Source of the DNA: Thermus caldilimi
GTDB lineage: Bacteria > Deinococcota > Deinococci > Deinococcales > Thermaceae
Direction of reading: 5' to 3'
Assembly: GCF_004684245.1 (NCBI RefSeq)
Contig: NZ_CP038452.1
Coordinates: 1,412,796 to 1,476,795, forward strand
Length of the DNA: 64,000 bases
Program-made: the position numbers and the translations under genes
Notes under the pieces: generated by a model
The model's input: only the letters and a program-made list of their open reading frames with translations
The model's database searches: none
Told to the model about the DNA's origin: nothing
Part shown: piece by piece, positions 25,342-36,245 of the stretch
How the letters are laid out: every line of letters starts with the position of its first letter
How positions within the stretch are numbered: the first letter of the stretch is position 1

Positions 25342-25890
25342 CTAGGGCAAGGTGAGCCAAGGGAAGCGGCGCTTGGTCTCAGGGTCCAACTGCAAAAGCT
25401 CCCGTGCGGGCATCTTCACCTGGGGCAGGGTCTTCTGGTTGATGGGCTCGTGGGCATCGATGATGCCGTTCATGTAGAGGAGAAAGGCCACCAGGTGGTA
25501 AACCTCCTCATTGGTGAGGGTGCCTTCAGCCCCAAAGGGCATGGCCCGGCGGATGTAGTCGTAAAGGGTGGTGGCGTACTGCCAGTAGTTGCCGATGGCG
25601 AACTCCGCAGGCTCCGTATCCGGGGTAATGGGGAAGGGCTCGGCCACCAGCCGGTTGAAGGGGTACCCCTCCCCCCGGGTCCCGTGGCAGGAAGCGCACT
25701 TCTCCGCGTAGATCCGCTCCCCCTCCTCCACCCTCCCCTCTCCCGGGGGAAGCCCCCGGCCGTCCGGGAGGACCACCGGCCTTAGGTCGTACTGGGCCGC
25801 CAGCTCCTCGGAGATAGGGGTGCCCAGGTTGTACCGGGCTCCCACCGCCAGGCCTAAAAGGGCCAAAAGAACCAGGATGCGCTTAACCAT
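25342..25890 (-). CDS. soxD: Sulfite/sulfur dehydrogenase cytochrome c subunit SoxD
   Basis: 182 residues from the ATG at 25890 (MVKRILVLLALLG, signal peptide). One heme site CASCH near residue 67 and a candidate distal Met in RRAMPFGAEG. SoxD is the cytochrome partner of the molybdenum protein SoxC; together they oxidise the SoxY-bound sulfane sulfur and give six extra electrons per thiosulfate. The gene overlaps soxC by 8 bases (ATGGTTAA). This is a short mono-heme version compared with the di-heme Paracoccus protein. The assignment rests mainly on its coupling to soxC. Confidence 0.82.
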   Translation of the reverse strand: MVKRILVLLALLGLAVGARYNLGTPISEELAAQYDLRPVVLPDGRGLPPGEGRVEEGERIYAEKCASCHGTRGEGYPFNRLVAEPFPITPDTEPAEFAIGNYWQYATTLYDYIRRAMPFGAEGTLTNEEVYHLVAFLLYMNGIIDAHEPINQKTLPQVKMPARELLQLDPETKRRFPWLTLP

Positions 25891-27166
25891 CGAACACCTC
25901 CCCGTCGCAACCCCCCACGGGTCCAAACGCCTGCTGGCCCAAGGGCCTATCCCCGTTCACCACCCGTCCGTCGGGCAGGATGCGCCAGGCCTGGATGGCG
26001 TTGTAGTGGTAGCGGTTGTTCCTGCCCCATTTCTTGAAGAACTCCTCCCGGGTGGGCTGGGTGTTCCCCTTCTCGTCCCAGGCCCGGCTCCAGAGGACCA
26101 CCTCCTTCCCGTCCCAGTACCAGGGCATCTTGAAGCGCACGAAGGCGTAGCGCTCCACCGGGGGTTCCAAGGTGGCCTGGCGCCAGGTCTTGCCCTCATC
26201 GAAGGAGATCTCCACCTTGGTGATCCGCCCGTACCCGCTCCAGGCCAGGCCGCGGATCTCGTGGAAGCCGGGCTGGATCTGCTGGAGCCCGGAGGGGTAG
26301 GTGATGATGGACTCGGGGTCCATGACCCAGGTGAAGGCCCATACCTTGCCATCGGCCATCACGTCGGTGTACTCGCTGGTCTCGTCCTTGGCCATGGCGG
26401 GGAGGTCCGTGACCAGGATGCGCCTTAGCCACTTCACCTGGATAGAGCCCTCCCACCCCGGCACCACCAGCCGCACCGGGTAGCCCTGCTCGGGGCGCAG
26501 GGCCTCCCCGTTTTGGGCATAGGCCACCAGCACGTCCTCCATGGCCTTCTTCAGGGGCAGGGAGCGGGTGTAGGCGGCGGCATCCATGCCCTCAGGGATG
26601 AGCCACTTGGCCCCGGGCTTCACCCCCGCCTCCTTGAGGAGCAAGGCCAAAGGAACCCCTGTCCAGCTGGCGTTGGAGGCCAGGCCCCGGCTCCGGGTGG
26701 CGGTGAGGTTGGGGTCCGGGGGGTTGCGGTAACCGTTTTGCCCGTTTCCGGCACATTCGATGAAGTAGGTGCGGGTCACGGAGGGGAAACGTTTCAGGTC
26801 CTCCAAGGTAAAGACCAGAGGCCTTTCCACCATCCCGTGGATGACCAGGCGGTACTTGGCCGGATCCACCTGGGGCACCCCTCCGTGATGCCGCTCAAAG
26901 TGGAGGCCGTTGGGGGTGATGACCCCCTCCAGTTTCTCCAAAGGGGCAAAGTCCGCCCCCGAGTGGCGGGTGCGCAGGTTGGGGGAAATGTAGCGTACCA
27001 CCCCTTCCTCAAAGGGGCTCCTCTGGCCGTACTCGGAAAGGGGGGCCCCCAGGGTCTTCATGGGGGCAAAGGTTTCCTCATCCCAGGGAGTCGTCTGAGC
27101 CTTGGCCTTAAGAAGGCCCAGCACGCCTCCTGCACCCAAAAGCCGGAAGAACCTCCTTCGGTCCAT
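25883..27166 (-). CDS. soxC: Sulfane dehydrogenase molybdopterin subunit SoxC
   Basis: Periplasmic molybdenum enzyme of the sulfite oxidase family; with SoxD it oxidises the outer sulfur on the SoxY carrier. 427 residues: Tat signal (MDRRRFFRLLGAGGVLG), molybdopterin domain with the Mo-ligand Cys in YFIECAGNG, RLVVPGWEGSIQVKWLRR in the central part, and a C-terminal Mo-co dimerisation domain (about 300-420) with ISFDEGKTW. It begins just after the terminator that follows fccB. AGGAGGG precedes the ATG and TACCAT (27175-27180) may be its -10 box, so soxC probably starts a separate transcript. Confidence 0.94.
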   Translation of the reverse strand: MDRRRFFRLLGAGGVLGLLKAKAQTTPWDEETFAPMKTLGAPLSEYGQRSPFEEGVVRYISPNLRTRHSGADFAPLEKLEGVITPNGLHFERHHGGVPQVDPAKYRLVIHGMVERPLVFTLEDLKRFPSVTRTYFIECAGNGQNGYRNPPDPNLTATRSRGLASNASWTGVPLALLLKEAGVKPGAKWLIPEGMDAAAYTRSLPLKKAMEDVLVAYAQNGEALRPEQGYPVRLVVPGWEGSIQVKWLRRILVTDLPAMAKDETSEYTDVMADGKVWAFTWVMDPESIITYPSGLQQIQPGFHEIRGLAWSGYGRITKVEISFDEGKTWRQATLEPPVERYAFVRFKMPWYWDGKEVVLWSRAWDEKGNTQPTREEFFKKWGRNNRYHYNAIQAWRILPDGRVVNGDRPLGQQAFGPVGGCDGEVFDG

Positions 27167-27231: not shown

Positions 27232-28521
27232 TTAGGCCGGGCCGAACATGTCGTTCCAAATGCCCGTGGCCCAGCCGATGGCAGCGGTGCCGTTGGCCTG
27301 GGAGCGCTGGTTGTCCACGCTGCTTTGGGCCTTGATCTGTCGCTCCGCTGCATCCCAGGAGTAGTTGGCCGCCACCCAGATGGCCTCCTCCCTGTCCACG
27401 AAGGAATAGCAAATGTTGTTGGGCAACTCCGGGGGGATGTCCTGCAGGGGCTTGCCCCGCAACCGTTCCACAATCTGCCGGGCCACAATGGTGCCGGAAA
27501 CGTAGGCCACCATGCCGCTTTTGGGGTAAGGGGTGTTGCCGGTGATATCCCCTACCAGGTAGACGCGGTCGTCCTTCTCCGAGAGGAAGTAAGGAATGCG
27601 CACGTTGGCCCAGCGCTCCCCCAGGCCTGCGGTGCGCACCAGCTCCCCTGCCTTCATGGGGGGGATAAGGTCGGCCACGGTAAAAGGCACGTCCCCAAGC
27701 TCCGTCCTCACCACCTTCTTCCCGTAATCCAGACCGGTAATCCGGGTGTTGGGCACGTACTCCAGGTAGTCCTTGTAAAGGTCGTTATAGGCCGCTAGGA
27801 AACCTGGGGCCTTGGAGATGGGCTGGGGGTTGGCATCTAGAACGATGACCTTACCCTTAACTCCCTTCTCCTTAAGCCGCCAGGCCAGCATAGCCGCCCG
27901 CTCATAGGGCCCCGGGGGGCAGCGGTAGGGGGGGTTGGGGATGTACATGACCAGCTCCCCGCCCGTCTCGTCAAACTGGTCCAGCATCCGCCTTAAGGCG
28001 ATGTGTTCAAAGGGCTTGAAGCCCACGGGCATGAGGTGCTTCACCTCGGCGTAGCCCGGGATGGCCTCGTACATGTAGTCAATGCCCGGGGCCAGGACCA
28101 GGTAGTCGTAACCGATGTACCCACCAGCGGTTCGCACCAGGCGGCGGTCCCGGTTGATGTCCAAAACCCTCTCCTGGACAAAGATCACCCCGTCCTTGAC
28201 CACGTTGGTGTAGTCAAAGACCAGCCACTCCAGGGGCTTGACCCCGGCCAGGAAAAGGTTGGACATGGGGCAGGACATGAAGATGGGCTTCTGCTCGAGG
28301 AGCACCACCTCCACACCCACCCCGGACTGGACCAGCTTCCGGGCCACGGTGGTGCCACCCCAACCACCCCCGATCACCACCACGCGCGGCTTGCGGGTGC
28401 GAGGAAGCAGGGTGGCAGGGCGGCTATAAAACTCCTGGGCAAAAGCCGAGCTGGAAAGGGCCCCTGCCGCGGCCAAGGCGGCACCCGTCTTCAAAACCTG
28501 ACGCCGATTCACCTTGCCCAT
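27232..28521 (-). CDS. soxF: Sulfide dehydrogenase flavoprotein (SoxF / FccB)
   Basis: FAD protein of the flavocytochrome c sulfide dehydrogenase family. 429 residues: Tat signal (NRRQVLKTGAALAAAGA), FAD-binding VVVIGGGWGGTTVARKL near residue 48, the flavin-linking or redox Cys in FMSCPMSNLF, a second Cys in YRCPPGPYERA, and VYLVGDITGNTPYPKSG near the C terminus. The usual cytochrome subunit (FccA/SoxE) is not adjacent, so its electron acceptor is unclear. It ends the soxW-fccB unit before a strong terminator. Confidence 0.88.
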   Translation of the reverse strand: MGKVNRRQVLKTGAALAAAGALSSSAFAQEFYSRPATLLPRTRKPRVVVIGGGWGGTTVARKLVQSGVGVEVVLLEQKPIFMSCPMSNLFLAGVKPLEWLVFDYTNVVKDGVIFVQERVLDINRDRRLVRTAGGYIGYDYLVLAPGIDYMYEAIPGYAEVKHLMPVGFKPFEHIALRRMLDQFDETGGELVMYIPNPPYRCPPGPYERAAMLAWRLKEKGVKGKVIVLDANPQPISKAPGFLAAYNDLYKDYLEYVPNTRITGLDYGKKVVRTELGDVPFTVADLIPPMKAGELVRTAGLGERWANVRIPYFLSEKDDRVYLVGDITGNTPYPKSGMVAYVSGTIVARQIVERLRGKPLQDIPPELPNNICYSFVDREEAIWVAANYSWDAAERQIKAQSSVDNQRSQANGTAAIGWATGIWNDMFGPA

Positions 28522-28548: not shown

Positions 28549-29400
28549 TTATCGGCCAGGGCGGTAAGGAGTCCCGCCCGTGGCTTCCAGGATCTGGCTC
28601 ATGACCTGGCGGGCCTCCTGAAGCATGGACACCGCCGGCGTGCCCATCACCCCGGGCATGATGGTCATGAGCATGGGCTCGATGGCCCCCACCAGGACGT
28701 CGTTACCCATCTGCATGGCGAAGAAGCGGCAAGGAGCAGCGAAACCTCCCGCAGGCTGGGTGAGGAACATGACCCGGGCCCATTCGCTCTTGCAGGGCAT
28801 GATCACGGTGACCGGGCCCACCTTCACGTTGGGCAAAAGGTTGAGCCCGTTGGAGGTGAGCTCCGTTTCCACCATGAGCACCACATCCTCCACCTTGGCG
28901 GCGGGCACCCGGTACAAGAGGGCGGGCATCATGCCGCTAGAAGGATCGGGCATCATGGCGGGGGGCAGGCGCTTCACGATGCCAAGCCTTCCCAAAGCCG
29001 CCTCGAGGCGCCAGGTTAGCCGCTCCACCTCACCCCCGTACACCTGGAGCATGGAAAAGAGCAGGCGCCCATCAAAAGTGCCCACCGTGAAGCTGTTCCC
29101 CTGGCCGGTGATGAAGACCGTGGGCGGCAAGACGATGGCGGCCATGGGGTTCTTGGAAACCGCCTCGATGCTTCCCTTGTCCGGCTTCAGCACCACCAGA
29201 CGGTACTCGGGGAAACCCGGGCCCGTCACCTGACGCACCTGCTCTCCCAGGTTCAGCACCCGGTCCGCCTCGAGGCCCACGGACTGCAGGGCGGAAAGGG
29301 TCTTAGCCTCCACTTCTTCCAAGGAGCCCTTAACCTCCACCACCAAAGACTGCGCCAAACCCAACCCCAAAAGGGCCACCAAAGCCAAAACCTTCTTCAT
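28549..29400 (-). CDS. Periplasmic protein with two DUF302 domains
   Basis: 283 residues. Signal peptide (MKKVLALVALLGLGLAQS). Two related domains (about 20-140 and 150-270) of the DUF302 type, rich in Met, with a Cys in VIMPCKSEWARV and another in FAAPCRFFAMQMG. DUF302 proteins are often found in sox clusters, but their function is not established. The Met-rich stretches (MMPDPSSGMMP, EPMLMTIMPGVMG) are notable and could bind a metal or a heme. ATG overlaps the rhodanese stop by 4 bases. Confidence 0.75.
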   Translation of the reverse strand: MKKVLALVALLGLGLAQSLVVEVKGSLEEVEAKTLSALQSVGLEADRVLNLGEQVRQVTGPGFPEYRLVVLKPDKGSIEAVSKNPMAAIVLPPTVFITGQGNSFTVGTFDGRLLFSMLQVYGGEVERLTWRLEAALGRLGIVKRLPPAMMPDPSSGMMPALLYRVPAAKVEDVVLMVETELTSNGLNLLPNVKVGPVTVIMPCKSEWARVMFLTQPAGGFAAPCRFFAMQMGNDVLVGAIEPMLMTIMPGVMGTPAVSMLQEARQVMSQILEATGGTPYRPGR

Positions 29401-29840
29401 TGGGAACCTCCTTCCACTTCCAAGCCCGCGTCCAACCAGCCCTTAAAACCATGGGCGATGTTCTTGGCGTTCTTGTAGCCAAGCGCTTGCAAATATGCGG
29501 CCACCACCGCCGAGACGCTTCCCGAGTTGCAGTAGACCAGGATCAGGGCCTCCCTATCCTTGGGAAGCTCTGCCAGGCGGTCCGGCACCTGGCCGGCATA
29601 GATGTGCACCGAACCCGGGATATACCCCTTCTTCCGCTCCTCCTCCGTACGCACGTCCAGGATGAAGGGGTCAAAAAGCAGAAGGTCCTTGGCCTCGGTG
29701 GGATAAACCAGGTAGCTGGCGGGAGGCACCCGCTTGAGAAACTCCCCAAAGGCCTTGACCCAGTCCCCTGCCTCCCCTCCCCCCTGGGCCCGGGCCCAGG
29801 GGAGGAGGGGAAGCACGGCAAGGAGGTCGCGGCGGCGCAT
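29397..29840 (-). CDS. Periplasmic rhodanese-like sulfurtransferase
   Basis: 147 residues. Tat-like N terminus (MRRRDLLAVLPLLPWARAQ) and a single rhodanese domain with PFILDVRTEEERKKGYIPGSVHI, catalytic Cys in VYCNSGSVSA, and a final HGFKGWLDAG. Rhodaneses move sulfane sulfur between thiols; in this cluster it could handle SoxY-bound or free polysulfide sulfur. It is coupled to the DUF302 gene by a 4-base overlap and follows the second soxA by 2 bases. Confidence 0.85.
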   Translation of the reverse strand: MRRRDLLAVLPLLPWARAQGGGEAGDWVKAFGEFLKRVPPASYLVYPTEAKDLLLFDPFILDVRTEEERKKGYIPGSVHIYAGQVPDRLAELPKDREALILVYCNSGSVSAVVAAYLQALGYKNAKNIAHGFKGWLDAGLEVEGGSQ

Positions 29841-29842
29841 GG

Positions 29843-30646
29843 CTAGCGGGTAAAGAAGGGCAACTCCTCAAAGGAGTGCCCGGCCTTAGTGGCCTCGGCC
29901 AGCATGTACACCGTCAAGGCAATGTGGACATCCGAGTAGAACCCCGGCTTGGGGATCGCGATGGACTCGTAGCAGAAGTTGATGCGGTCCTCCATGGTGT
30001 AGAGCCGGTCCTCCTCAAAGCGGTAGGCGGGCCACTCGTTGCCCAGGCCCTGCTTGGGGCTCCTGACCGGGGAAAGCCGCACCCTTTGGCCCGCATACTG
30101 GTCGTGGCAGACGGCGCAGCTCATGTCCCTAGCCCCCGCACGGGTGTACCAAAGCTCCCGCCCCAGGTTGTACATGGCCAGCTCCGCCGGGTGCTTGGGC
30201 ACCACCTGGATCTTGGCCTTGGAGGAGAAGGAGGCGATGTAGGTGGTGATGGCCCTAACCTCGTCCCGCTTGATCTCCGCCGGCTTGTACCCCTGCACGG
30301 TCTGCATGCAGGTGTACACCCGGGTTTCCAAGTCTTCCACCCGTCTGCTATCGGGGAAATACTTGGGAAGGATGGCGTAGACCCCTTCCAAAACCCCCTT
30401 CCCCTTGCCGAAGTCGCACTCCTCGAGGGTCTTGCCGCTTGGCCCCTTGCGGAAGAAGAGCTCCTTCCCCTCCTCCACAAAAAGATCCCCTGGGAGCACG
30501 CCGAAGGTCTCCAGGTACATCTGCCGCTGGCGCATGGCCTCCTCGAAGGGATCCAGGGGCTTTTGCTGCTGGGTGTAGGCCCCCACACCCACCAGGGTCC
30601 CCAAGGCCAGCACGCCCAGGAAAACAAAGCGATTCCTTCTCTTCAC
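29843..30646 (-). CDS. soxA: Second SoxA-type cytochrome c
   Basis: 267 residues, paralogue of the soxA at 33.5-34.3 kb. Signal anchor (RFVFLGVLALGTLVGVGA). One classical heme site, CAVCH, near residue 174. The SoxA block EECDFGKGKGVLEG is kept with a Cys, as is the VYTCMQTVQGYKP segment and the C-terminal NFCYESI, whose Cys sits where SoxA has its catalytic heme-ligating Cys. Together with the soxX just upstream it would make a second SoxXA heterodimer. SoxXA couples thiosulfate to the SoxY Cys. Whether both pairs are active is unknown. Confidence 0.82.
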   Translation of the reverse strand: MKRRNRFVFLGVLALGTLVGVGAYTQQQKPLDPFEEAMRQRQMYLETFGVLPGDLFVEEGKELFFRKGPSGKTLEECDFGKGKGVLEGVYAILPKYFPDSRRVEDLETRVYTCMQTVQGYKPAEIKRDEVRAITTYIASFSSKAKIQVVPKHPAELAMYNLGRELWYTRAGARDMSCAVCHDQYAGQRVRLSPVRSPKQGLGNEWPAYRFEEDRLYTMEDRINFCYESIAIPKPGFYSDVHIALTVYMLAEATKAGHSFEELPFFTR

Positions 30647-30649
30647 GGC

Positions 30650-31213
30650 TCACCTCCGGTTGATGGGGGATTCGGGGTCCAGAAGGAAGGCCACCAGATC
30701 GGCGGTCTCCTCCGGGGTGAAGAGGCCGTGCACCCCGCCCCGGTACATGAGGGAGCAGGGTACGAAGGCCCATGCGTTGTAGATCTTCTCGTAGGTGTAC
30801 CGCACCACCGCCTCCGAGGTGCCCCGCTGCCCATAGTTGGTCAGGCTCGGCCCCATGGTGCCGTGGGCCACCTCGCTGGCCACCCCGGCGTGGCAGGCAT
30901 AGCAGTTGCCCCGCTTGGGGTCAGTGAAGACCTTCTCCCCGTTTCGCCAATCCCCCATGAGCTTTCCATTCGCTGGGTACTTGATGAGGGCCTTTTGCTC
31001 AGCTAGGAAAGAAGGTATTAGGTCTGGAGGCAGCTTGTCCCGATACTGGGAACAAAGCGCCTGCCCTTTGTCCTGGGAAAGCATTACCTGAGCGAACTCG
31101 TGGCCACCCGCATGCAAAGCTGCCTCGAGGCGGGCCCTAAAGGGGCTCATCTGGGTGAGGCCAAGCCCCAGGATGAGACCCGAAACCAACCAAACTGCCG
31201 CTTTTTTGGTCAT
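30650..31213 (-). CDS. soxX: Second SoxX-type cytochrome c
   Basis: 187 residues: signal anchor (VWLVSGLILGLGLTQ), single heme site CYACH near residue 104, candidate distal Met in CSLMYRGG, and the C-terminal FTPEETADLVAFLLDPESP helix. It shares with the first SoxX the long inserted region before the heme (ALCSQYRDKLPPDLIPSF and YPANGKLMGDWRNG). It starts ATG overlapping the soxB stop and is followed after 3 bases by the second soxA. The order X-A is reversed compared with the first pair (A-X). Confidence 0.82.
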   Translation of the reverse strand: MTKKAAVWLVSGLILGLGLTQMSPFRARLEAALHAGGHEFAQVMLSQDKGQALCSQYRDKLPPDLIPSFLAEQKALIKYPANGKLMGDWRNGEKVFTDPKRGNCYACHAGVASEVAHGTMGPSLTNYGQRGTSEAVVRYTYEKIYNAWAFVPCSLMYRGGVHGLFTPEETADLVAFLLDPESPINRR

Positions 31214-32931
31214 GAACTCACCTCCGGTACACGGTAGTTGCGTCCCAGCACCCGCACGTTGGGCTTAGGCAAAACCCTTACGCGCCCAGCGGCTTTGAGG
31301 TAGTCCTCGAGGACCTGGTCAATGGGCCTGGGCTCAAAGCCCGCCTTGGCCTCCCCCACCCGCTGGAGCCTCCCCCCATAGGAGGCCGCCAGGTAGCGGC
31401 GATTGGGATCCAGGGGCTTGCCCCCCACCTCCACCTCCCGGATGCGCTTGCCGACCGGGGCATCGGGGTCCAGCACATAGCGGAGGCCAAAGACCCGGCT
31501 CACGTCCCCGCCTTGCTGGTAGAAGGGATCGGGGGTAAAGACGTTGCTGGCGATGTCCTCCAGGGTGTTCCGAATCTGCTCCCCCCGTAGCCAGAAGAGG
31601 TAAAGGTCGGGGTAGGTAAAGCCCAGGTAGGCGTAGAGATGGTCCCGGGTGATGGCCTGGCCGGGAAGAATGGTGGTACCCCAGCGCACCGCCGGGCTGA
31701 AAACCAGGTCCACCTCGGGATAAAGGGCCTTCACCGCCTGTCCCACCAGCTCATCCCAGGTGGAGTAAAGGGTGTCCCGCTTGTACAGCAAGGACTCGGA
31801 AACCGCCAGGGGCTCGAAAAGGTGCTGGCGGTGAGGAGCCAGGGCCTTCTCCAGGAAGGTTTCCACATCGGGAGCCCCCGGCAGATGGCCGGCCAGAACC
31901 GGCAGGATCCTGAGCCGGAGGTTGGCGATGCCCCCCCGGAAAAGTTCGAGGTCCACCCGCATGAGGGCCTTGCCGGCCGCGCTTCCCGCCACGATCCAGG
32001 TCTTCCCCACCCGCCAAGGGGAGGGGGTGAGGTCGTGGGTGTGCCCAGAAAGGATGAGGTCAATGCCCTTCACCCGCTCCGCTAAGGCCGCGTCCAGCTG
32101 GAGGCCGTTATGGGAGAGAAGGACCACGGCATCCGCCCCCTCGGCCCGGGCTTGATCCACGGCCTCCTGCAAGCGGCGCACATCCAGGGCAAAGGAAAGG
32201 CCTTCGGTGAACTCCTCGGGGTGGGAAACCTTCACGTAGGGGTAGGTGGCCCCCACGACGGCCAGGGCATAGCGGCCCAGCTGGTGGATCCGGTAGGCGG
32301 GGTAGAGGGGGTCGCCGAAAAGTTCGTCCACCACGTTGTAGGAGAGGTGCTCCCCCTTAAACTTCTTGAAGAGGGCCTCCGCCCTCTCCCGCCCCAAGGT
32401 CCACTCCCAGTGGGAAACCATATGGTCTACCCCGACGAGGTTCTGCCAGTCCACCAGGGCCTCCCCCTGGGTGAGGAGGGAAAGCCCGGAGTTGGTCCAG
32501 GTATCCCCGCCGTCCAACACCAGGACCCTTCCCCCCTCGGCCTCCACCTGGGCCTTTTGCCCGCGGATAAGGGCGGTAAGGGCGCTCAGGCCCCCAATGG
32601 GACCGAAGGCCTTGGCCAGTTCCACGAAGTCCAGGTAGCTGAGCAGGTAGGCCAAGGGGGTCTTCCGCTCCACCCCGTAATAGCGCAGGATGGCCTCCCC
32701 CGTGAGGTAGCCGGGCCTCCCCATAAGGGGCTTAGGGGGGATGAGGTTGGGCGGCTCCATGAAGTAGTGGGGGAAGGCTTGGCCGTGGAGGTCGGAGAAG
32801 TAAAGAAGGGTGGCGTTACCGTAAGGGGGAAGGTCATAGAGGCGGGAAGGATTCTCCAGGACCTGGGCCAAAGCCTTGGGCCCGAGCCCCGCCAGGGCGG
32901 AAAACCAGAAAAGAAGTTCCCTTCGGTTCAT
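31210..32931 (-). CDS. soxB: Sulfur-oxidising protein SoxB (thiosulfohydrolase)
   Basis: Periplasmic di-manganese hydrolase that releases sulfate from the SoxY thioconjugate. 573 residues: Tat-type N terminus (MNRRELLFWFSALAGLG), metallophosphatase domain with LLYFSDLHGQAFPH, LVLDGGDTWTNSG, VVGATYPY and LILSGHTHDLT, then a 5'-nucleotidase C-terminal domain (about 370-560) with the RWGTTILPGQ and substrate-pocket residues. SoxB is the standard marker of thiosulfate oxidation. ATG overlaps the stop of the upstream soxX (ATGA). It sits between the two soxXA pairs. Confidence 0.95.
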   Translation of the reverse strand: MNRRELLFWFSALAGLGPKALAQVLENPSRLYDLPPYGNATLLYFSDLHGQAFPHYFMEPPNLIPPKPLMGRPGYLTGEAILRYYGVERKTPLAYLLSYLDFVELAKAFGPIGGLSALTALIRGQKAQVEAEGGRVLVLDGGDTWTNSGLSLLTQGEALVDWQNLVGVDHMVSHWEWTLGRERAEALFKKFKGEHLSYNVVDELFGDPLYPAYRIHQLGRYALAVVGATYPYVKVSHPEEFTEGLSFALDVRRLQEAVDQARAEGADAVVLLSHNGLQLDAALAERVKGIDLILSGHTHDLTPSPWRVGKTWIVAGSAAGKALMRVDLELFRGGIANLRLRILPVLAGHLPGAPDVETFLEKALAPHRQHLFEPLAVSESLLYKRDTLYSTWDELVGQAVKALYPEVDLVFSPAVRWGTTILPGQAITRDHLYAYLGFTYPDLYLFWLRGEQIRNTLEDIASNVFTPDPFYQQGGDVSRVFGLRYVLDPDAPVGKRIREVEVGGKPLDPNRRYLAASYGGRLQRVGEAKAGFEPRPIDQVLEDYLKAAGRVRVLPKPNVRVLGRNYRVPEVSS

Positions 32932-33506
32932 CTAGACCCCACCGCCGGCTTGGTGTTGAACTCGCTTTCCGGATCCAACAAGTAGGCCACCACGTCGGCG
33001 ATCTCCTCGGGGGTCAAAAGCCCTTGGGCGCCGAAGCGGTACATCACCGTGCAGGGGAAGTAAGCCCAGGAGTTGTAGATGACCTCGTAGGTGTAGCGCT
33101 GGATGGCTTCCGACTGCCCCCGCTTTAGGCCGTATTTCTCCAGGCTCGGCCCCACGTCCCCACCCAGGTGCACGGGGGAACCAAAGTGGCAAGAGAAGCA
33201 GTTGGCCTTCTGCAGGTCGTTGAAGATGGCCCCGCCCTTCTTCCAATCCCCCATGAGCTTGCCGCTCTGCGGGTACTTGATGAGGGAGCGTTGCTCCTCA
33301 AGAAACTTGGGCAGAAGATCGGCGGGCAGGCGGTTCCGGTGGATGGAGCAAAGGGCCTGGTCCGGCCGCTGGTTGAGGAAGACCTCAGCATAGGTCTTGC
33401 CACCCATCTTGATGGCCTCCAGCTCGGAAGGGCTGAAGTACGACTGGGCCAAGGCTACCACCAAGGGTGCGGCCAAAAGGATAGGGATAAGCTTCTTCGC
33501 CTTCAT
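32928..33506 (-). CDS. soxX: Sulfur-oxidising cytochrome c SoxX
   Basis: 192 residues from the ATG at 33506 (MKAKKLIPILLAAPLVVALA, signal peptide). One heme motif CFSCH near residue 111, a distal Met candidate in CTVMYRFG and the LLTPEEIADVVAYLLDPES end. Like the second SoxX it has a ~45-residue insertion before the heme with a conserved Cys (ALCSIHRNRL). Forms the SoxXA heterodimer with the SoxA encoded just upstream (10-base gap). The frame is open far upstream, but that region is soxA in another frame. Confidence 0.9.
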   Translation of the reverse strand: MKAKKLIPILLAAPLVVALAQSYFSPSELEAIKMGGKTYAEVFLNQRPDQALCSIHRNRLPADLLPKFLEEQRSLIKYPQSGKLMGDWKKGGAIFNDLQKANCFSCHFGSPVHLGGDVGPSLEKYGLKRGQSEAIQRYTYEVIYNSWAYFPCTVMYRFGAQGLLTPEEIADVVAYLLDPESEFNTKPAVGSR

Positions 33507-33516
33507 CACCGCCTCC

Positions 33517-34299
33517 TCACCGCACGAAAGCCGGCCACTCCTCCACCACAGCCCCGTTATTCTGGTAGGCCATGAAAAGCTCCAGGGCCAGGATGGGCAA
33601 GGAGTAAAGGGCAGGCTGGGGATGGCCAATGTTGCCGTAGCAAGCCCGGATGCGGTCTTGCATGGTCCAGATCTGGTCGTTGGAGTAACGGTAGGCGGGC
33701 CAGTGGGTCCAGGACTTATCCTTGCCCAAGACATCCGCGTAGGGGAGGACCCCGGCCCTGCGGCCCACATAGGTGATGTGGCAGGTAGCGCACCCCAGGT
33801 CCCGGGCCCCCGAACGGGCGTAGAAGAGCTTCTCCCCCAGGGCGTAAAGCGCCCGCTCCTCAGGGAAGAGGAGGCGCACCTGGATGGGCTTCCCCGTGGA
33901 GAAGCTGGCGATGTAGAAAGCGATGGCCACCACCTCCTGCCGCTTGACCTGGTCCGGCCGATAGCCCTGGACCCGGGTCATGCAGGTGAGGATGCGGCCA
34001 TCCAGGTCCTCCACTTTGCCCGTATCCAGGAAATAGCGAGGTAGCCTGGCCGCCGCCCCTTCCAGGACTCCCTTCCCCAGGCCAAAGTCGCACTCAGCCA
34101 TGGTCTTGCCGCTGGGCCCCTTGCGGTTAAAGAGCTCCTTGCCCTGCTCCACGATGAGCTCGGTGGGCAGGATCCCCGCGGTTTCCAAAAGGAGTTGCTT
34201 TTGCCGCTTGGCTTCTTCCCTGGGGTCCACCTCCCCCTGGGCCAAGGCCAAGCCAAGCAGGAAAAGCACGCCCACCATCCACCAGGACCGTAAGAGCAT
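33517..34299 (-). CDS. soxA: Sulfur-oxidising cytochrome c SoxA
   Basis: Catalytic subunit of SoxXA, which oxidatively couples thiosulfate to the SoxY Cys. 260 residues from the ATG at 34299, which has GGAGGT six bases upstream. Signal peptide (WWMVGVLFLLGLALA). One CXXCH heme site (CATCH). Further Cys in AECDFGLGKGVLEG and LTCMTRVQGY correspond to the disulfide of mono-heme SoxA, and the Cys in IRACYGNIG is at the position of the heme-ligating, persulfide-forming catalytic Cys. A GC hairpin separates it from soxZ. Confidence 0.9.
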   Translation of the reverse strand: MLLRSWWMVGVLFLLGLALAQGEVDPREEAKRQKQLLLETAGILPTELIVEQGKELFNRKGPSGKTMAECDFGLGKGVLEGAAARLPRYFLDTGKVEDLDGRILTCMTRVQGYRPDQVKRQEVVAIAFYIASFSTGKPIQVRLLFPEERALYALGEKLFYARSGARDLGCATCHITYVGRRAGVLPYADVLGKDKSWTHWPAYRYSNDQIWTMQDRIRACYGNIGHPQPALYSLPILALELFMAYQNNGAVVEEWPAFVR

Positions 34300-34322: not shown

Positions 34323-34348
34323 GGCGCCCGGGGTTACCCCCGGGCGCC
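34323..34348 (-). promoter_or_regulatory. Strong hairpin between soxZ and soxA
   Basis: GGCGCCCGGGG (34323-34333) pairs perfectly with CCCCGGGCGCC (34338-34348) over a 4-base loop. No T-run follows on the minus strand and soxA follows closely with its own ribosome site, so it is more likely an mRNA-stabilising or partial read-through structure than a full stop. It would let soxYZ carriers be made in excess over soxAXB. Confidence 0.6.
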
Positions 34349-34352
34349 ACCT

Positions 34353-34679
34353 CTAGGCCAGCTCCAGCTTTACCGTGCCCTCGCCGGTATCTCCGTCGGT
34401 GTCCTTAAGCTTGACGGTAAAGGTCCCCGCCTTTTCCGCCTTGAACATGAAGCCGTAAAGGGGGTTGGCGCTGGTGGAGGGGCCGGGCTTGGCCTCGGCC
34501 ACCTTCTCCCCCTCAAAGTAGATCTCCACCTGGTTGATGTACTTGGCGGGGATGATCTTGCCCTCGGCATCCCGGCGGGTACCGGGCTCGTTGGGATGCT
34601 GGGCCACTACCTGGAGCTTGAAGTTCTCGCCCGCCTTGGGCTTGGCCGGCGTCAAACGAACAATGGTGCGAATGGGCAT
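34353..34679 (-). CDS. soxZ: Thiosulfate oxidation carrier subunit SoxZ
   Basis: 108 residues, no signal peptide: SoxZ is exported bound to SoxY. Immunoglobulin-like beta sandwich with the family start MPIRTIVRLTPAKPKAGENF, a conserved HPNEPGTRRD loop and KAEKAGTFTVKLKDTDG near the end. SoxYZ carries sulfur intermediates through the whole Sox cycle. It follows soxY by 11 bases. Confidence 0.94.
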   Translation of the reverse strand: MPIRTIVRLTPAKPKAGENFKLQVVAQHPNEPGTRRDAEGKIIPAKYINQVEIYFEGEKVAEAKPGPSTSANPLYGFMFKAEKAGTFTVKLKDTDGDTGEGTVKLELA

Positions 34680-34690
34680 CTTCTACCTCC

Positions 34691-35143
34691 TTAACCGCAA
34701 CCGCCCACGGTCACGCGGGTGCTGGCCGAAGCCAAAAGGAACTTGCCGTCCGCCGTTTCCACCACCGCCCGGATAGCGCTGGTCTCCGCCAGGCGCACCC
34801 GGGTGGCATAGTAGGGAAGCGCCTTCATGGGCATAATCACCACCAGGTGCGGGGTGGGGTTCTTGTCGGCGAAAAGGTGGATGGCCTTCACCTGGCTCGA
34901 GGGCAGGTCTACCTCCACCTCAGCGGGAACGTTGGCCCCGCTTTCCGCAATGGCCGGCATGGTGAGCTTGATGAGGTTGGAGGGGGTGAGGTCCTTAAAC
35001 CCCTTGCCCAAAGCTGCCTGCAAGGCCTTCTCCAGGTTGGCCAGATCCTCGCCCTCTAAACCCTGCGCCCTTACGGGAAGCCCCGCCAAGGCAACGGCCC
35101 CGAGGGCTACGCCAGTGGTCCTTAGAAACGCTCGCCTATTCAC
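34691..35143 (-). CDS. soxY: Thiosulfate oxidation carrier protein SoxY
   Basis: Carrier to whose C-terminal Cys the substrate is covalently bound. 150 residues from the GTG at 35143 (VNRRAFLRTTGVALGAVALAG, a Tat signal); a GTG two codons upstream is equally in frame, and AGGAGG lies just before both. The C terminus is the swinging arm TVGGCG with the reactive Cys next to last. It overlaps the end of the thioredoxin-like gene by 8 bases. Confidence 0.94.
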   Translation of the reverse strand: MNRRAFLRTTGVALGAVALAGLPVRAQGLEGEDLANLEKALQAALGKGFKDLTPSNLIKLTMPAIAESGANVPAEVEVDLPSSQVKAIHLFADKNPTPHLVVIMPMKALPYYATRVRLAETSAIRAVVETADGKFLLASASTRVTVGGCG

Positions 35144-35570
35144 ACGCACCTCCTTTGGCACAGATCTGGCGCAGCTCCGAAAGGAACTGCGCCCGGGGCC
35201 GGCTGCCAAAAAACCGGCCCACCTCTTCCCACGCCCCCTTGCGGAAGACGAGGAAGACAAACGTGGGGGTACCCGGCACCCGATACCGCCGGGAAAGTTC
35301 CTGACCCTCCGGGGTTTCGGTATCCACGGAGGCCACCACGAACCGGTCCTCCAGGAAGCGGCTTACCTGGGGATCGGAGAGGACGAAGGTGTTCATCTGG
35401 TCGCAATAGGGACAGTGAGGAGAGTGAAAGTACACCATCACCACCCGCCCGTGGCTCTGGGCCAGGTCCAGGGCCGTTACATAGGGATACCACCGGCCAA
35501 AATCCGGAGCCGCCCAGGCCGCGGCCAGGGCGAGTAGGACTAGGGACCAAAGTACCCGGTATGCGTACAT
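35136..35570 (-). CDS. soxW: SoxW-like periplasmic thioredoxin
   Basis: 144 residues from the ATG at 35570; a GTG at 35579 is also in frame. Signal peptide (VLWSLVLLALAAAWA) and thioredoxin-like domain with the active site SPHCPYCDQM (CPYC), the VASVDTETPEG strand and the cis-Pro loop RVPGTPTFVF. SoxW-type thioredoxins keep the SoxY Cys reduced; electrons could come from CcdA encoded 10 kb downstream on the same strand. First gene of the sox operon, just after its promoter. Confidence 0.82.
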   Translation of the reverse strand: MYAYRVLWSLVLLALAAAWAAPDFGRWYPYVTALDLAQSHGRVVMVYFHSPHCPYCDQMNTFVLSDPQVSRFLEDRFVVASVDTETPEGQELSRRYRVPGTPTFVFLVFRKGAWEEVGRFFGSRPRAQFLSELRQICAKGGACE

Positions 35571-35584
35571 CTTATACACCGCCT

Positions 35585-35610
35585 GGGTACACCCAAGGAC
35601 ATTTGTACCC
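35585..35610. promoter_or_regulatory. Candidate operator over the sox promoter
   Basis: Perfect inverted repeat GGGTACA (35585-35591) and TGTACCC (35604-35610) with a 12-base spacer. The right half covers the minus-strand -10 box (35607-35612) and the left half covers the expected transcription start, the classic position for a repressor. No ArsR/SoxR-type regulator gene is in the window. Confidence 0.55.
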
Positions 35611-35798: not shown

Positions 35799-36245
35799 AT
35801 GAAGCGGACCCTAACGGCTCTCCTCCTTATCGGCAGCCTGGCCTTCGCCCAGGCGGACGGCGCCAAGCTCTACGCCCAGTGCGCAGGATGCCACCAGGCC
35901 AACGGGCAGGGGCTCCCCGGGGCCTTCCCGCCCTTGGCCGGCCACGTTGCTGAGGTCCTGGCCAAACAGGGTGGGCGAGAGTACCTGATCAAGGTCCTCC
36001 TCTGGGGCCTCCAGGGCTCGATTGAGGTGAAGGGCATGAAGTACAACGGGGCCATGCCTGCCTTTGGCCAGCTCAAGGACGAGGAGATCGCCGCCCTTCT
36101 CAACCACATCGCCACCGCCTGGGGCGACGACAAGAAGGTCCAGGGTTTCAAGCCCTTCACCGCCGCCGAGGTCAAGGCTCTGCGGGACAAGAAGCTCACT
36201 CCCCAGCAGGTGCTGGCCGAGCGGCAGAAGCTGGGGCTGAAGTAA
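35799..36245 (+). CDS. cycA: Cytochrome c-552 precursor
   Basis: Small soluble periplasmic cytochrome, the Thermus electron donor to cytochrome ba3 oxidase. 148 residues: signal peptide [17 protein letters not shown], heme site [22 protein letters not shown], distal Met in [11 protein letters not shown], and the long C-terminal extension ([10 protein letters not shown]... [16 protein letters not shown]) that wraps around the protein in T. thermophilus c-552. The match to that protein is near-identical from memory. Next to sox and ccm genes it is the natural acceptor for Sox electrons and a client of the Ccm system. It is the only gene of its transcript, with a terminator directly after. Confidence 0.95.

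Follow-up and report, generated by a model that had tools for sequence, protein, structure and literature searches.

Here, we report that the sox operon of Thermus caldilimi carries two diverged SoxXA pairs, one on each side of soxB (soxA1-soxX1-soxB-soxX2-soxA2 on the minus strand, inside a trx-soxYZ...soxCD operon; translations read), and that their split, as sequence phylogenies place it, is older than the diversification of the family Thermaceae. Pair 2 (X2A2) is the constant pair and is never lost; pair 1 (A1X1) has been lost in two Thermus lineages. The two may be ancient paralogs acting on one SoxYZ carrier, where pair 1 would load thiosulfate and pair 2 would have shifted to another sulfur substrate or step, a proposal for which we consider the case evenly balanced. 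Why the Thermaceae keep two diverged first-step enzymes for a pathway with one carrier is a puzzle. All coordinates refer to the window, the whole stretch of DNA analyzed (64,000 nucleotides; contig NZ_CP038452.1, positions 1,412,796 to 1,476,795). The five central genes are as follows.

33517 to 34299, minus strand: soxA1 (pair 1), monoheme SoxA with CATCH, catalytic motif DRIRACY and Ser206 at C-14, 14 residues before the catalytic Cys (TIGR04484, 222.9 bits)
32928 to 33506, minus strand: soxX1 (pair 1), extended SoxX with CFSCH (TIGR04485, 84.8 bits)
31210 to 32931, minus strand: soxB, thiosulfohydrolase (TIGR04486, 691 bits; cut-off, 550)
30650 to 31213, minus strand: soxX2 (pair 2), extended SoxX with CYACH (TIGR04485, 84.3 bits)
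29843 to 30646, minus strand: soxA2 (pair 2), monoheme SoxA with CAVCH, catalytic motif DRINFCY and Glu211 at C-14 (TIGR04484, 224.6 bits)

A preliminary description had read five genes here as soxA-soxX-soxB-soxX-soxA, and translation and NCBIfam equivalog cut-offs (110 bits for SoxA and 61 bits for SoxX, exceeded by both copies of each) confirmed them. From soxA1 to soxA2, neighboring genes either overlap by 4 nt or are separated by no more than 10 nt. A1 and A2 are 52% identical, and X1 and X2 about 51 to 52%. As had also been described, each SoxA retains one CxxCH and the catalytic Cys (RIRACY in A1, RINFCY in A2), and each SoxX has a single CxxCH; its distal Met lies within PC..MYR in X1 and X2 alike. 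Both SoxA proteins match SoxA of Starkeya novella (3OA8 chain A; E 1e-40 for soxA1, 2.1e-37 for soxA2), in which the first SoxA heme site is likewise absent. The SoxX insertion with an extra Cys is indeed common to both copies, but it is not unusual, as had been claimed: both have an N-terminal extension and two extra Cys, one near the Met ligand, and SoxX2 aligns with Starkeya SoxX (3OA8 chain B; E 6.5e-29) with both extra Cys matched. By sequence, both pairs are thus of the ordinary extended-SoxX, monoheme-SoxA type. Their single SoxA CxxCH and 3OA8-like SoxX are features of type II SoxAX, the class of the Starkeya protein in the usual scheme. Starkeya SoxAX (3OA8/3OCD) shares the monoheme SoxA without an N-terminal CxxCH and the extended SoxX with the same two extra Cys; it differs in being a single, distant pair (36% identity to the SoxA of the sister family introduced below), and its C-14 residue is Ser, as in A1.

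The layout itself is not new, being already in print for T. brevis PS18 and T. thermophilus HB8. T. brevis PS18 has an identical 13-gene sox order, with two copies each of soxA and soxX at ~50% identity (PMC13019369, 2026); the main text of that paper reports the copies but offers no phylogeny of each set, does not trace losses or compare active sites, and proposes no division of function. In HB8, TTHA1422 to TTHA1410 follow the order of the T. caldilimi operon, with TTHA1419/1418 (L-cysteine S-thiosulfotransferase) and TTHA1416/1415 (SoxX, SoxA) flanking soxB (TTHA1417); the soxXA duplication is not discussed in that paper’s TTHA1953 account (PMC10318464). What sequence comparison adds here is the separation into clades, the conserved order, the loss pattern and a residue switch.

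Distribution and origin of the two pairs

Of 50 Thermaceae genomes, 43 yielded a SoxB, and none of the remaining genomes among the 111 Deinococcota searched did. Every complete soxB-bearing Thermaceae locus, across five genera, has the order W-Y-Z-A1-X1-B-X2-A2-Rhd-DUF302-F-C-D, bar the lineage of Thermus brockianus. In T. brockianus YIM 77927 (G032) and G033, an in-frame deletion fuses the beginning of soxA1 with the last part of soxX1, the rest of the locus being intact; the two loci are 99.99% identical over 16 kb and were scored as one event. The other deletion is in Thermus G027 (99% complete), which has Y-Z-X2-A2-Rhd-DUF302-F-C-D and neither A1, X1 nor SoxB. Its A2 groups beside that of G040, inside Thermus (100/96), and the hairpin that lies between soxZ and soxA1 is retained; G027 has therefore lost the A1-X1-B block secondarily, and its reading as an ancestral state is ruled out. 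Pair 1 without pair 2 was not seen in any genome read, and the second pair, presented earlier as the odd one out, is the one that persists. The fragmentary assembly of G042, with broken frames, was left out as evidence, and G047, scored as having no soxB, is split across contigs at that very place and was excluded from the losses.

A single pair occurs in G066 and G069, two genomes that belong to a different family within the order (here, the sister family) and whose loci read F-W-Y-Z-X-A-C-D with no SoxB found; these genomes are 84% and 71% complete, and a soxB elsewhere in them could have been missed. Elsewhere in the SoxB-less genomes, the search for SoxB returned only generic 5’-nucleotidases, far under the cut-off.

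The sister-family pair has the order X-A and directly follows soxYZ, which bears on the apparent mirror of the Thermaceae pairs. The gene order is indeed reversed, as first noticed, but both pairs lie on one strand and no inversion is needed; with all genes sharing that strand, a local inversion is ruled out. The mirror would fit an A1-X1-B block inserted, or retained, between soxZ and X2-A2, because placing A-X-B between soxZ and X-A yields the observed order.

In the SoxA tree, A1 (41 rows; 99/96) and A2 (44 rows; 100/97) form separate clades, each strongly supported, across five genera. The preliminary description had argued against a simple tandem duplication, and in the phylogeny the sets are indeed not near-identical recent copies; a recent tandem duplication is ruled out by the SoxA, SoxX and concatenated trees. 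Sister-family SoxA groups with A2 (100/96) and, at the 17 positions of fixed A1/A2 difference, resembles A2 at 10 and A1 at 4. The SoxX tree recovered X1 as a single clade (100/100) and left the branching of X2 and the sister family unsettled, SoxX alone being too short for placing the latter; in the concatenated SoxA and SoxX tree, the sister family joins pair 2 (95/87). On these groupings, the split between the pairs is likely also older than the divergence from the sister family. Against this placement, an approximately unbiased test leaves a sister family outside both pairs possible (p 0.19) and weakly disfavors one with pair 1 (p 0.07), so that the order of events is not fixed.

Outgroups were thin and distant, and phylum searches gave none near enough for firm rooting. 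Even so, every tree joined the two Thermaceae sets to the exclusion of all outside sequences, and a search of about 1,140 genomes and 17 plasmid records, with other phyla thinly sampled, turned up no outside SoxA that lay nearer to one set. Both results speak against two separately acquired SoxXA sets, one arriving with a sox operon and the A1-X1-soxB block being imported from another lineage. This history would accommodate the loss of A1-X1-B as a unit in G027 and the pair-2-type genes with no soxB found in the sister family, from which A1-X1-B could be an insertion; the Thermaceae sox genes, moreover, have been inferred from soxCD homologs to be horizontally acquired (PMC13019369). On balance, we consider separate acquisition unlikely.

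Three further observations concern these loci. SoxB of most Thermus is only 63 to 64% identical to that of G035 and G049 (L023 and L024), in which the flanking A1, X1, X2 and A2 are 76 to 88% identical to those of the window; soxB (31210 to 32931 in the window) may be fast-evolving or replaced inside an otherwise conserved operon, and in the SoxB tree its stem is long, though it does not fall outside the Thermaceae. SoxX2 of G027 and G040 (L080 and L020) has two stretches nearer SoxX1 than other SoxX2, which suggests partial gene conversion between the copies. Finally, contig C2 of G001 seems to carry two sox clusters: besides a complete one near 270 kb, a segment at the contig edge (L083, 1 to 5524) holds the end of soxA2, rhodanese, DUF302, flavoprotein, soxC, soxD and ccdA.

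Active sites and possible roles

All four genes are under purifying selection (dN/dS, 0.04 to 0.15 for A1, X1, X2 and A2 against eight close relatives; soxB similar), and the catalytic Cys, the Arg at C-4 and the equivalent of Arg232, a residue described as invariant in SoxA (PMC4423706), are invariant in all 41 A1 and all 44 A2 rows. The deletions in T. brockianus (A1X1) and G027 (A1-X1-B) could be read as a sign that one set is decaying or noncatalytic; the low dN/dS, the invariant catalytic residues and the place of sox-cluster proteins among those highly expressed in thiosulfate-grown T. brevis PS18, where the cluster as a whole is highly expressed (PMC13019369), make such decay very improbable.

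Divergence between the sets is concentrated in the catalytic domain. Among the 103 columns that are at least 95% conserved in each SoxA set, the sets differ at 17, and 15 of these fall in that domain (Fisher p 3.6e-4); the narrower stretch 176 to 224 gives p 3e-5, but it was picked after the data were seen. At C-14, Ser stands in 41/41 A1 and Glu in 44/44 A2. In the Allochromatium vinosum thiosulfate dehydrogenase TsdA, Arg109 binds thiosulfate, and SoxA is said to have “lysine or serine” at that position (PMC4423706); we equated it with C-14 by counting back, without gaps, from the catalytic Cys, which gives Lys in Rhodovulum and Ser in Starkeya. The Ser of A1 fits this description and the Glu of A2 does not; soxB-bearing outgroups also have T, V and A, so the description does not define SoxA strictly. 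TsdA has a catalytic domain of the same SoxA type as the proteins here, including the Cys ligand and, as Arg119, the C-4 Arg; it differs in forming tetrathionate, in having Arg109 at C-14 and in using no SoxYZ (PMC4423706). Outside the Thermaceae, Glu at C-14 was found in 0/17 soxB-bearing loci and in 4/4 soxB-less alphaproteobacterial loci (Roseomonas, Methylobacterium and two Neorhizobium, the last on plasmids), whose SoxY tails lack GGCGG. These clusters share the Glu of A2; they differ in their carrier (a “SoxY-related AACIE arm” without the GGCGG arm) and in a SoxX without the long extension, and they are not close kin. No soxCD was seen in the stretch read of these clusters.

Retention of heme, Cys ligand and C-4 Arg implies that both pairs should form a Cys-sulfur adduct, which would then be handed to SoxY (mechanism by homology, PMC4423706), and catalytic competence of both is likely. 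The soxZ here is the sole SoxZ of the genome (one PF08770 match in a whole-genome search, in which no second SoxYZ serving pair 2 was found), so that the carrier is presumably common to both. Pair 1, with its canonical Ser pocket, would conjugate thiosulfate to the GGCG cysteine of SoxY; SoxB would then free sulfate from the conjugate, and SoxCD would oxidize the leftover sulfane. Pair 2 keeps heme, the cysteine ligand and two active-site arginines, with Glu in place of the canonical Lys/Ser, and would probably load sulfur in a less anionic form (for instance, sulfane sulfur supplied by the flavoprotein and the rhodanese) or else prime SoxYZ with sulfane. X2A2 would be the constant core of the operon and A1-X1-B a losable block between soxZ and X2A2. 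From paralogy, conservation, loss pattern and residue switch, all read from sequence, we infer both activities, the shared carrier and the substrate split, the last at about even chances.

Several observations weigh against such a split. T. brockianus retains soxB with pair 2 only, so pair 2 may itself load thiosulfate. A2 retains both Arg232 and the C-4 Arg. Sister-family SoxA carries Ser at C-14, so operation without SoxB does not depend on Glu, and the four soxB-less alphaproteobacterial loci, from three genera, may represent one evolutionary event. In HB8, both pairs are under one regulator: in the TTHA1953 mutant, TTHA1419 and TTHA1418 rose 24.7- and 32.9-fold, TTHA1417 8.2-fold, and TTHA1416 and TTHA1415 16.0- and 8.9-fold, and no separate deployment is shown in that account (PMC10318464). 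As a separate observation, sister-family SoxA (L073 and L074; soxFWYZXACD, no soxB found) has Thr at the supposedly invariant Arg232 position.

The T. brockianus locus makes redundancy the main rival: as redundant or dosage copies, the paralogs would perform the same thiosulfate-to-SoxYZ conjugation, any difference being confined to affinity, stability, redox partner or expression. The passage of both pairs over the SoxA and SoxX cut-offs, with heme motifs, Cys ligand, C-4 Arg and Arg232 kept, is consistent with it, as are their corepression in HB8 and the several soxXA copies of other sulfur oxidizers (some Thioalkalivibrio have four in a row [PMC6382920]). Redundancy underpredicts the long upkeep of copies at ~50% identity under strong purifying selection, the fixed differences around the active site with the Ser/Glu switch, and the persistence of pair 2 where SoxB and pair 1 are gone; we regard it as a genuine possibility all the same.

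The suggestion that the second pair serves a different substrate, made in the preliminary description, accordingly fares unevenly. Indirect support comes from the Glu/Ser switch, the clustering of differences in the catalytic domain and the occurrence of pair-2-type SoxXA without SoxB, with T. brockianus pointing the other way. The rhodanese, DUF302 and soxF genes cited for it do follow soxA2 (the DUF302 match being under its cut-off), but they are weak evidence of substrate, because the one-pair relatives (L073 and L074) have soxXA beside soxYZ and soxCD without rhodanese. A bolder version of the substrate split, tentative and rather doubtful, would make X2A2 a distinct SoxB-independent SoxXA subfamily that loads nonthiosulfate sulfur (sulfane/persulfide) or primes SoxYZ to SoxY(S)Z, and A1-X1-SoxB a detachable thiosulfate module placed before an older SoxB-independent operon surviving in the sister family and one Thermus.

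If pair 2 does use another sulfur donor, this would help explain sox clusters that lack SoxB. Such use could also be relevant to a SoxYZ activation step proposed in work where the oxidation of sulfane-loaded SoxYZ unexpectedly required SoxAX (PMC5336275). Thanks to the Ser/Glu switch and the naturally occurring deletions, the question of roles is directly testable in Thermus.

The surrounding operon

The full order is thioredoxin, soxY, soxZ, A1, X1, B, X2, A2, rhodanese, DUF302-like, flavoprotein, soxC, soxD and ccdA. The complete gene set of the Sox thiosulfate pathway (soxYZ, soxXA, soxB and soxCD) is present, soxD being assigned by position and cytochrome domain only. Features flanking the five central genes are as follows.

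35585 to 35610, minus strand: candidate operator palindrome GGGTACAAATGTCCTTGGGTGTACCC, between a TTGACA-type promoter-like sequence and the first operon gene (read directly)
35136 to 35579, minus strand: thioredoxin-like (soxW-type) gene, first of the operon (Pfam Thioredoxin_2)
34691 to 35144, minus strand: soxY carrier, C terminus VGGCG (Pfam SoxY; NCBIfam TIGR04488 SoxY_true, 136.8 bits; cut-off, 125)
34353 to 34679, minus strand: soxZ (TIGR04490, 96.4 bits; cut-off, 76)
34324 to 34347, minus strand: GC-rich perfect hairpin between soxZ and soxA1, folding at about -35 kcal/mol
29397 to 29840, minus strand: rhodanese-like sulfurtransferase (Pfam Rhodanese, 1.5e-17)
28549 to 29400, minus strand: DUF302-like protein (Pfam DUF302, 21.6 bits, slightly under the cut-off of 23)
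27232 to 28521, minus strand: SoxF/flavocytochrome c flavoprotein-like protein (under all named NCBIfam cut-offs; nearest, sulfide:quinone reductase)
25883 to 27166, minus strand: soxC (TIGR04555, 585 bits; cut-off, 420)
25342 to 25926, minus strand: soxD, c-type cytochrome (open reading frame span; likely start downstream, near 25890; Pfam cytochrome c, position after soxC, TTHA1410 homolog)

In HB8, the sox operon is headed by TTHA1422, the homolog of the thioredoxin-like gene, and the flavoprotein homolog TTHA1412 is annotated as sulfide dehydrogenase flavocytochrome c (PMC10318464). No match to the HB8 TTHA1953 consensus was found in the window with up to 3 mismatches allowed, and a looser half-site pattern gave uninformatively many hits; that the palindrome at 35585 to 35610 is the site of a TTHA1953-type regulator is a guess. 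The hairpin between soxZ and soxA1 occurs in the Thermus loci and the one neighboring genus examined and is absent from Meiothermus; it may terminate or hold part of the soxYZ message.

A divergent gene for a small c-type cytochrome (35799 to 36245, plus strand) faces away from the operon start, and the HB8 gene at its place, TTHA1423, is coregulated with sox (PMC10318464). Elsewhere in the genome, a candidate TsdA-like diheme thiosulfate dehydrogenase (L003; C1:462212, plus strand) makes a second, tetrathionate-forming route for thiosulfate possible.

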